In this document: positions 6,697 to 13,450 of the stretch, in pieces
How positions within the stretch are numbered: position 1 is the first letter of the stretch
Layout of the letters: each line of letters starts with the position of its first letter
NCBI GenBank assembly: GCA_029210545.1
Contig: JARGFV010000043.1
Span: 1-19,276 of the forward strand
Origin: a bacterium
Lineage (GTDB): Bacteria > BMS3Abin14
Length of the DNA: 19,276 bases
Direction: 5' to 3'
Made by a program: the position numbers and the translations under genes
Notes under the pieces: model-generated
The model's database searches: none
Told to the model about the DNA's origin: nothing
Seen by the model: only the letters and a program-made list of their open reading frames with translations

Positions 6697-6705
6697 AGAG
6701 CAGGC

Positions 6706-6733
6706 TTATGGTTGAGGGTTTATGGTTGATGAC
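6706..6733. repeat. Heptamer repeat, TTATGGT/TGAGGGT type
   Basis: Four 7-bp units form a 14-bp direct repeat: TTATGGT+TGAGGGT (6706-6719) followed by TTATGGT+TGATGAC (6720-6733). It runs straight into the palindrome at 6736-6765. Confidence 0.7.
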
Positions 6734-6735
6734 TT

Positions 6736-6765
6736 CGCAAAAAGTCCCGGATTGGACTTTTCGCG
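6736..6765. repeat. Palindromic repeat related to the one at 104-130
   Basis: CGCAAAAAGTCC (6736-6747) and GGACTTTTCGCG (6754-6765) form a 12-bp inverted repeat with one mismatch and a 6-nt loop. The core GAAAAGTC/GACTTTTC is shared with the stem-loop at 104-130, which indicates a dispersed palindromic family. From memory, similar GACTTCGCAAAAAGTC palindromes recur in deltaproteobacterial spacers. Confidence 0.65.
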
Positions 6766-7084
6766 ACCCTGTCAAGGTTGTACGTCACGCCGGCCGGATC
6801 TCTCTGAAAATCCGGCGAGCGTATTATGGATTGTTCCAGATGATCCGCCAGATGATCCACATCGTGTCCATGGCATAGCGGACGGTTCTGAAAACAGCGG
6901 GTTACGTGTTCCTGAGGGGGAACCATACCCGAAATCCGGCGATTGGACCCTTCCGGTCGGGGTCAGGGCGTCGATCAACAGTTCCTGACGCTGCCCGGAC
7001 ACGTTCTTCGGACCCGGACCGAAAAAACGGCCTCTCCGATGCCCCGACCGGAGGCCGGCCCAAACCAATCGCGGAATTCGGGCT
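6766..7084. other. Non-coding spacer before the GAF histidine kinase
   Basis: Over 300 bases with no convincing gene. ORFs exist on both strands but their translations resemble nothing I know and they have no good ribosome binding sites. Two weak inverted repeats are visible: GCCGGAT/ATCCGGC (6793-6799 with 6810-6816) and CGGCCTC/GAGGCCG (7028-7034 with 7051-7057). A promoter for the downstream kinase gene should lie here, but I cannot identify a consensus. Confidence 0.4.
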
Positions 7085-11718: not shown

Positions 11719-11749
11719 ATTACCATAGAATTGATTATCGAATGGTAAT
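11719..11749. promoter_or_regulatory. Inverted repeat ATTACCAT/ATGGTAAT upstream of the Gx transporter
   Basis: Perfect 8-bp arms (11719-11726 and 11742-11749) enclose a 15-nt AT-rich spacer. Position, just ahead of the transporter gene and after a repeat block, suggests an operator or leader hairpin, but no regulator is identified. Confidence 0.4.
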
Positions 11750-11780
11750 TGGTCCATGTACAGAGCGAAGGAAGCAGAAA

Positions 11781-12314
11781 GTGGGGATGGGGCATGCCTC
11801 CAGGTTGACGACCCTGGCCATGCTCATCGCCGCGGCGTTCGCACTGGCCTCCCTGGAACGTGTTTTCCCCAACCCGTTCCCCATGGTGCGCCTGGGGCTG
11901 GGCAACATCATGACCATTGCTGCCTTCGTCATCCTGGGAGTTTCCGGCGGCGTCTGGGTCAGCGTTGGGCGGGTTGTCCTCGTGGCCCTGCTCTGGGGAG
12001 GGCTGTTCTCACCATCGGCTGTCCTGTCGGCAGCAGGGGGTGCGGCAAGTCTCGCCGTGATGGTGCCGCTGCTCCTGTCAGGGCGGTTTTCCCTTTACGG
12101 GATCAGCATGGGCGGCGCCTACGCCCATGTGGCGGGGCAGCTGGCCGTCGCGTCCCTCCTCTACGTCCGTTCGACCGGCTTGTTGTACCTGGTACCGGTC
12201 ATGGGAACGGCCGCCATTTTAACGGGGGTGTTCAACGCGTGGGTCGCCAGTAAGCTGGCGACAGTTTTCAGAAATCAGGAATCTGGAATCAGTAGAAATA
12301 CAAAAGCTGTTTAA
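11781..12314 (+). CDS. Gx transporter family protein (Hpre_diP_synt_I)
   Basis: A 177-residue polytopic membrane protein of the Gx transporter / 'heptaprenyl diphosphate synthase component I' family (PF07456). Hallmarks are an N-terminal helix (LTTLAMLIAAAFALASLE), then the conserved RVFPNPFPMVRLGLGNIMTI, the Gly-rich LVALLWGGLFSPSAVLSAAGG, and GGAYAHVAGQLAVASLLY. About five to six helices are predicted. The family resembles ECF-transporter substrate-binding subunits and sits next to apbE and NusG_II genes in many anaerobes, so import of a flavin or quinone-type precursor is a plausible but unproven role. I chose GTG at 11781 because AAGGAAG lies 6 nt upstream; ATG at 11742 or 11787 are alternatives. 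The last ~14 codons are made of a heptamer repeat. Confidence 0.82.
   Translation: MGMGHASRLTTLAMLIAAAFALASLERVFPNPFPMVRLGLGNIMTIAAFVILGVSGGVWVSVGRVVLVALLWGGLFSPSAVLSAAGGAASLAVMVPLLLSGRFSLYGISMGGAYAHVAGQLAVASLLYVRSTGLLYLVPVMGTAAILTGVFNAWVASKLATVFRNQESGISRNTKAV
12273..12293. repeat. Heptamer repeat, AATCAGG/AATCTGG type, inside the Gx C-terminus
   Basis: Three 7-mers, AATCAGG, AATCTGG and AATCAGT, form the same pattern as 2531-2551 and are translated as the tail NQESGISR of the transporter. A perfect hairpin CGCCAG/CTGGCG (12245-12260) precedes it within the coding sequence. Confidence 0.8.
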
Positions 12315-12500
12315 CCACAGTGCGACCGGTTTGCAGGTCGCTCCACAGGGTTGCACAGGGTAAACAAACGGACTATTTTTCAAACCAAAAGAAATGTCTT
12401 TCCCTGCGATGCGGCCTTCAGTTGGCCGCACCGCGTACCCTGCGGTAGGTTAGCCTTTGCCTGTTAGTACTTAGGGAACCCCCCCGGCTTTGCCGGGGGT
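12315..12500. other. Structured spacer with four hairpins
   Basis: No ORF of note. Successive inverted repeats are GCGACC/GGTCGC (12322-12327 with 12336-12341), TGCGGCC/GGCCGCA (12410-12416 with 12424-12430), CCGC/GCGG (12431-12445), and the strong CCCCCGGC-TTT-GCCGGGGG (12481-12499). There is no T-run after the last, so it is not a standard intrinsic terminator. It may be an undescribed structured RNA, REP-like hairpins, or the end of a decayed mobile element; I cannot decide. Direct homology to RNase P, SRP, 6S or tmRNA is not apparent. Confidence 0.45.
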
Positions 12501-12547
12501 ACATGACCTGCCAGGTGACTGCTAACGCCTTTCCAGGAGCTGAAATT

Positions 12548-12640
12548 ATGAAAACCCGCTTCCGGTGGGTTGCGAACGCCCGGCCTGGAATGGTCGTCTA
12601 CCATGACGAGGAGTGGGGTGTTTCAGGTATGAACAGCTGA
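12548..12640 (+). pseudogene. tag: Truncated 5' remnant of 3-methyladenine DNA glycosylase I (tag)
   Basis: The 30-codon reading frame begins MKTRFRWVANARPGMVVY and continues HDEEWGV, matching the N-terminus of Tag (family pattern RCxWxxxxPxxxxYHDxEWGVP). Tag removes 3-methyladenine from alkylated DNA and is normally about 190 residues. Homology stops right after EWGV; the frame then reads SGMNS and stops inside an ACAGCTG repeat. No later Tag sequence (such as LFE or EGxQAGLSW) is seen. The N-terminal zinc-ligand Cys is replaced by Phe5, another sign of decay. A good Shine-Dalgarno AGGAG (12535-12539) is still in place 8 nt before the ATG. Since it is so short, the match rests mainly on the YHDEEWGV motif. 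Confidence 0.7.
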
Positions 12641-12725
12641 CAGCTGTCTGAGTGCACAAGCGCACAGGTGCATGAGTGCATTAAGATCAGCCGTTCTCAC
12701 TGCGTCCCCGCGTCTCCGTGTCATG
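12633..12725. repeat. Mixed heptamer/octamer block abutting the tag remnant
   Basis: ACAGCTG occurs twice in tandem (12633-12646). Four 8-mers of the type GAGTGCAC/AAGCGCAC follow (12650-12681). After a short gap, GCGTCCCC and GCGTCTCC (12702-12717) are octamers that, read on the other strand, resemble the GACGCGGG words at 10987-11018. The block fills the space between the tag remnant and the stop of pgeF. Confidence 0.8.
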
Positions 12726-12727
12726 GG

Positions 12728-13450
12728 TCAGTTTCCTGCAGCCCTGATGAAACTGACCATCCGCTCTTCCTCATCCCCTCCACGGAAAGACAGAAGCAGT
12801 TCCCGGTCGCACAGGGTGCACCCCGTGATCTCCTCGATGGAATCAGCAGCCATCCCAGCTGTCAGAAGTTGGGATTTGGCTCCGGCGGCAAGATCCAGGT
12901 AGAGACTGCCTCCCCGAATCTCAAAGAGTCCTTCACGTTTATCTGAAGGGAAAGAACTCCTGACCTCTTCGCCCACCTCGCAGCAGCACGGGCCGATGGA
13001 CGGGCCCAGTGCCGCCACAAGGCTGTCCGGTCCGGAACCTGTCAGGGTTATGAGTGCTCTGACGCCCTTGGCGGCAAGGCCCGAGGCCAGGCTGCGCCAC
13101 CCGCAGTGGATGGCTGCCACGGCGCCGGTGGCTGTGTCTCCTGTCAGGATGGGAAGGCAGTCGGCCGTCCGGATACCGACGGCGGTGCCGGGAATGTCCG
13201 TGACCATGGCGTCCCCCTCGTCGAAGCGGAAGTGGTTGGAAGGAAGTGGTTGGTAAGAGGTATTGAGGGAACTTCTTCCCCCTTCCTTCTTCCTCCTTCC
13301 TCCTTCATCGGTCAACACTACCACCCTCTCCCCATGCACCTGCACCAGGATGTGAACATCTCCAGGATAATCCTCCCGCACTGTCAGCCTTGTCCCGAAC
13401 CCGTGCTCGAACCCGGCCTGTCCAAGAAGGGTTGAGCGCAGGACTGTCAT
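12728..13450 (-). CDS. pgeF: PgeF/YfiH multicopper-like laccase-fold protein
   Basis: A 240-residue member of the YfiH/YlmD (DUF152) family. E. coli PgeF prevents misincorporation of L-Ser into peptidoglycan precursors, and related proteins act as purine nucleoside phosphorylase/adenosine deaminase. The zinc/active-site residues are His39 (QVHG), Cys98 (TADCLP) and His115 (HCGWR). LGPSIGPCCCEVG and the C-terminal CTLCDRELLLSFR are conserved blocks. Between residues ~49 and 77 there is an in-frame low-complexity insert (DEGGRRKKEGGRSS and onward) where relatives usually have only a few residues before EGDAMVTD. It is encoded by heptamer repeats. The start codon overlaps the stop of the pseudouridine synthase gene (TGATG), the usual rluD-pgeF coupling. 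Confidence 0.92.
   Translation of the reverse strand: MTVLRSTLLGQAGFEHGFGTRLTVREDYPGDVHILVQVHGERVVVLTDEGGRRKKEGGRSSLNTSYQPLPSNHFRFDEGDAMVTDIPGTAVGIRTADCLPILTGDTATGAVAAIHCGWRSLASGLAAKGVRALITLTGSGPDSLVAALGPSIGPCCCEVGEEVRSSFPSDKREGLFEIRGGSLYLDLAAGAKSQLLTAGMAADSIEEITGCTLCDRELLLSFRGGDEEERMVSFIRAAGN
13228..13307. repeat. Two heptamer arrays inside pgeF
   Basis: On the plus strand GGAAGTG+GTTGGAA then GGAAGTG+GTTGGTA (13228-13255) form a 14-bp direct repeat, and five 7-mers of consensus YYCTTCC (13273-13307) form a polypyrimidine array. Together they encode the extra loop of PgeF. Confidence 0.85.

Follow-up and report, generated by a model that had tools for sequence, protein, structure and literature searches.

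The window, by which we mean the whole 19,276-nucleotide stretch of DNA that was analysed, carries a gene for heptaprenyl diphosphate synthase component I (HepPPS-I) and a convergent pgeF gene, and between them lie the first codons of tag, encoding 3-methyladenine DNA glycosylase I, closely followed by a block of short tandem repeats. The interval comprises the following features:

11742 to 12314, forward strand: upstream anchor, a HepPPS-I family gene (PF07456, E 2e-32)
12464 to 12507, no strand: dispersed G+C-rich hairpin repeat with a CCCCCCCGGCTTTGCCGGGGG core, before the tag stump (copies found by blastn)
12535 to 12539, forward strand: Shine-Dalgarno sequence AGGAG, 8 nt 5' of the ATG (read from the sequence)
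12548 to 12622, forward strand: tag remnant, the first 25 codons, with Cys5 changed to Phe and YHDEEWGV kept (profile, structure, synteny, blastn and alignment)
12623 to 12632, forward strand: putative junction interval, TCAGGTATGA, from the end of Tag homology to the start of the arrays (anchored extension not significant)
12633 to 12646, forward strand: array 1, two copies of ACAGCTG, holding the TGA stop (alone, P 0.036)
12651 to 12681, forward strand: array 2, about four copies of an 8-bp unit of the AGTGCAC(A) or (A)AGTGCAC type (array scan, shuffles)
12702 to 12722, no strand: array 3, an 8-bp unit of the GCGTCTCC/GTGTCACC type, complement of the GACACGG(T/G) word
12728 to 13450, reverse strand: downstream anchor, convergent pgeF of the multicopper polyphenol oxidase (laccase) family (PF02578, E 2e-44; TIGR00726)

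The reading frame of the stump runs from the ATG at 12548 to a TGA stop at 12638-12640, and its translation is a peptide of 30 residues, MKTRFRWVANARPGMVVYHDEEWGVSGMNS. Within Pfam the sole match of this peptide is Adenine_glyco (16.7 bits, E 0.007), residues 7-26 aligning with profile positions 1-19; the NCBIfam tag models TIGR00624 and PRK10353 also recognise it, weakly because of its short length, and it matches E. coli Tag structures at E 0.2-0.25. While the Pfam score lies below the curated PF03352 cut-off of 25 bits, the N-termini of three intact relatives, trimmed to 25-27 residues, likewise fall short of it (17.5-20.2 bits) and outscore the stump by just 1-5 bits, so that the low score reflects length rather than divergence. 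Both the W and the YHD.EWG of the N-terminal motif are present, YHDEEWGV forming residues 18-25. Specifically, 15 of 22 residues are identical to those of the syntenic intact Tag of the relative G004, to whose gene the region 12556-12631 aligns by blastn with 76% identity (E 8e-8), and functional orthologs (G004 against G006-G008) are identical at 12-14 of 22 positions over the same N-terminal part. Judged by this comparison, the 25 codons kept are no more diverged than functional orthologs, Cys5 excepted.

Residue 5, Phe in the stump, is Cys in all seven intact tags of the family, and we take this Cys probably to be a ligand of the zinc snap. The zinc snap consists of two Cys and two His contributed by both tails of the protein (PMC9266487); in the stump the N-terminal Cys is replaced by Phe5 and the C-terminal pair is deleted. 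The catalytic core is likewise missing, as neither strand between 12622 and pgeF showed any further Tag homology; the lone significant score beyond that position, to the reverse strand of G008 in a comparison with DNA including the spacer behind tag, came from a shared array word. With a ribosome-binding site present and the catalytic region absent, the stump should, on its sequence, yield no working enzyme.

Intact tag genes of 188-195 codons stand at the place of the stump in four relatives from two genera (G004, G006, G007 and G008), where the gene order is NusG_II, HepPPS-I, tag and, on the opposite strand, pgeF. In all four the HepPPS-I gene lies immediately 5' of tag, and pgeF lies downstream in three, the contig of G007 ending inside pgeF. 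The stump is therefore a syntenic pseudogene, a remnant at a place where relatives keep the ortholog intact. Across the family, tag is present in 7 of 12 genomes. HepPPS-I adjoins pgeF without tag between them in G001, G003, G010 and G011, and the two genes lie 1.3 kb apart in G002 and 4.4 kb apart in G009, again without tag between; G003 carries tag at another place, and in G009 and G010 the gene is on a separate contig. A tree of neighbouring proteins makes the window sister to (g6,(g4,G005)) with clade support of 1.0, and stump and tree position together show that tag stood here before that split and was then lost in the window's lineage, the genus of which is represented by one genome. No PF03352 match occurs elsewhere in the window's genome (G000, 97.5% complete), which indicates that the missing 3' part of tag is not on another contig. 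The short form was not found in the other family genomes, all other copies at this place being full length, and the alternative glycosylase, Pur_DNA_glyco, is absent from all family genomes.

Anchored extension of the homology past 12622 is not significant for protein (P about 0.16-0.2) or for DNA (P 0.13-0.26), so that the break would fall between 12623 and 12632; the blastn match to G004 reaches 12631 by way of a one-base shift. An in-frame continuation of Tag homology through the array (SGMNS*QLSE against PVHDDRKLFE) was considered and rejected, with P about 0.16-0.2 and a Pfam gain of 0.3 bit. The GV codon and the pgeF stop are 105 bp apart in the window, about 740 bp in G006 and about 790 bp in G004, tag accounting for 495-507 bp of the distance in these two relatives; the loss from the window thus comes to about 165 codons plus spacer, a net of about 0.64-0.69 kb. 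In these respects the first-pass annotation was borne out: it had described a Tag N-terminus ending in YHDEEWGV behind a Shine-Dalgarno sequence, homology ceasing at about 12622, an ACAGCTG array starting at 12633 with the stop codon inside it, and the loss of the first zinc-ligand Cys.

Each of the three arrays behind the stump is weak when taken alone (P 0.01-0.04), but the combined block, 12633-12722, was matched in none of 2000 shuffles. Among segments of equal length, 0.05% of coding and 5% of intergenic ones score as high; the block is real, though nothing out of the ordinary for DNA between genes in this genome. It ends five bases short of the end of pgeF. Words related to those of array 2 recur at six other places in the genome with at most one mismatch, against one control match, and the word of array 3, which the first-pass annotation had not listed, is also found beside other genes. 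Tandem Repeats Finder, at a score of 30, reported none of the three. Two further identities for the block were rejected: a mobile element inserted into tag, as the sample contains the whole block only once and its words alone recur, and a terminator, as fold z-scores are -0.2 and -0.5 and the block holds no terminator-like site.

The genome also has dispersed repeats. The hairpin repeat before the stump has at least six further copies, 83-100% identical, on other sampled contigs (L093, L088, L080, L074, L061 and L063). A longer dispersed element, of about 146 bp, lies within 6697-7084 of the window, at 6737-6882 of L074 and on most other sampled contigs; it is non-coding and MITE-like, with several near-perfect foldbacks and a predicted folding energy of -79.6 kcal/mol. 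Counting fragments, blastn gives 97 matches to it, spread over 38 of the 41 stretches sampled and often located at the ends of contigs, and G004 holds divergent relatives of it. Another dispersed family is represented at 15199-15264 of the window (in the spacer 15093-15289), where about 60 bp recur at 80-95% identity on at least five other sampled contigs.

Short tandem arrays were surveyed in a sample of 820 kb of the 2.72-Mb genome (30%), with 709 genes from our own simple gene caller. Intergenic DNA (113.7 kb) holds 245 arrays, compared with about 7 in shuffles, with units of 6-10 bp, mostly 7 and 8, and their density within genes is one tenth of that between them. The stop of the upstream gene has an array within 10 bp in 32 cases, where 12.8 are expected (2.5-fold), and start codons in the same sample show no such excess. 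The stop or 3' end falls inside an array in 24 of 678 genes. Thirteen of the 24 could be compared with G004 orthologs, the median C-terminal difference being 0, and a general erosion of gene ends by arrays was rejected. Long arrays of degenerate 7- and 8-bp units that directly abut or span stop codons include those at L058 9160-9255, L074 11500-11584 and L073 7459-7524; their words are many, and several are common to G004, a genus-level relative. At L064 19704-19815, AGTGCA-type arrays in opposite orientations form a long inverted repeat, and as G004 791056-791149 is about 60% alike to them in translation, this case may be conserved.

In G004 (AGAGATA-like), G007 (GTGTCTA-like) and G008 (GACACGG-like) the stop of the intact tag is itself spanned by an array, and a weaker TATCTAGT-like run lies at that stop in G006. 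Thus tag usually has an array at its 3' end, with words differing by lineage, and a stop codon that falls within one is no mark of truncation. The first 25 codons of the intact tags were found to contain no array. Conservation of array sites between genera was considered and rejected: at orthologous gene ends of G000 and G004 the odds ratio is 1.8 (P 0.29) and the units mostly differ, the sole clear case of agreement being the gene at L070 5903-6737, which shares with its ortholog in G004 a GACACGGT unit across the stop. A census for protein remnants beside arrays covered 463 intergenic regions, compared with 1.6 Mb of G004 (74%; 2% of it masked), together with the tag locus, and revealed no second clear case against this one reference relative, the completeness of which is estimated at 73%.

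Taken together, these data make it probable that an ancestral tag lost everything from about codon 25 onwards by a deletion that reached into a pre-existing, array-rich 3' spacer. In the ancestor shared with g4 and g6, tag would have stood between HepPPS-I and pgeF, and in the lineage of the window a single, ordinary deletion running from about codon 25 into the spacer ahead of pgeF would have taken out some 165 codons together with part of that spacer. Most likely the spacer was rich in arrays beforehand, as it is in the relatives, so that codon 25 would now continue into an array that by chance supplies the TGA stop. We infer that the array is older than the deletion; as G000 and G004 show no significant conservation of array sites, an ancestral array at this very place is a likelihood. 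Closeness of break and array is to be expected, because arrays sit at gene ends, and a deletion into an array-rich spacer explains every observation by known processes. The stump documents well the loss of a single gene, by which this lineage of the family lost its only recognisable Tag.

A stepwise decay, in which tag was inactivated by point mutations (Cys5 to Phe, a frameshift or premature stop) and shortened by several small deletions, with the arrays growing later, is possible but rather unlikely. It would account for the change of Cys5 to Phe, for the one-base shift by which blastn homology reaches 12631, and for the equal number of codons in the tag frame between GV and QLSE and, in relatives, between GV and KLFE, a premature stop lying between; QL.E in register with KLFE leaves slight room for homology as far as 12652, which would amount to decay in place. 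However, the extension of homology beyond 12622 lacks significance, the missing DNA amounts to at least about 0.64 kb, and the identity of the stump to G004, set beside the lower values among orthologs, leaves little decay before the break. That two unrelated ends were joined at a repeat during assembly is very improbable: although the genome is a draft of 241 contigs with dispersed repeats at contig ends, the ancestral gene order flanks the junction on both sides and the rest of tag is on no other contig. Retention of the 30-codon frame as a functional small peptide or leader, to which the intact start codon and Shine-Dalgarno sequence might point, is hardly credible, given that other family genomes have no short form, their copies at this place being full length, and that residues 26-30 derive from junction and array.

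The remaining alternative concerns the arrays themselves, for if the array had been made at the break, by double-strand-break repair or by slippage seeded on codons of tag, the junction would have captured an array at its birth. The array starts 0-10 nt from the end of homology and the first 25 codons of intact tags are free of arrays, as such an origin would have it. Beyond this proximity nothing positive speaks for it, and it is improbable: hundreds of spacers that separate intact genes hold arrays, as do the stops of intact tags in relatives; no second junction of remnant and array was found in the census; and words of the AGTGCAC and GACACGG types are present elsewhere in this genome and in G004, so that tag was not their source. 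The earlier proposal that the block was joined across a deletion of the rest of the gene consequently holds in that most of tag was deleted; for the block, a pre-existing array and an ordinary deletion suffice. Its further claim, that the junction is a physical record of the origin of such blocks, finds no support, given that intact tags already end in arrays in three of four relatives, that the 13 testable array-ending genes are not shortened and that the census holds no second case. The junction records ordinary gene loss and does not answer how arrays arise.

Compared with known systems, the short tandemly repeated repetitive (STRR) sequences of cyanobacteria are intergenic heptamer repeats, and the present arrays, with head-to-tail 7-8-bp units found genome-wide between genes, are of this STRR-like kind. 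The TAACTGA repeats of Beggiatoaceae consist of one word and lie mainly before start codons (PMC4679880). Like both, the arrays described here are mostly of 7-bp units, intergenic, of few copies and sometimes extend over stop codons, while differing from the TAACTGA repeats in their many words, in having 8-bp units too and in their excess right at stop codons. The tandem repeats of Borg elements have longer and perfect units (PMC9879509), in contrast to these degenerate 7-8-mers of a bacterial chromosome. In this family the arrays are thus abundant, degenerate and many-worded in intergenic DNA, and favour gene ends without shortening genes. The stump, for its part, resembles Tag (TIGR00624, PF03352; E. 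coli Tag, PDB 1LMZ/1NKU) in its W...YHDEEWGV motif, in the position and length of its N-terminus and in the synteny shared with intact family members, and differs in retaining 25 of about 190 codons, in the Phe at the N-terminal Cys and in the absent catalytic region. In bacteria, 3'-truncated pseudogenes can form by intragenic deletion. The tag stump is like them in that the 5' part and the ribosome-binding site are kept and the rest is gone, in that a new stop is supplied by downstream DNA and in that synteny is preserved, the sole notable difference being the array-rich nature of that downstream DNA.
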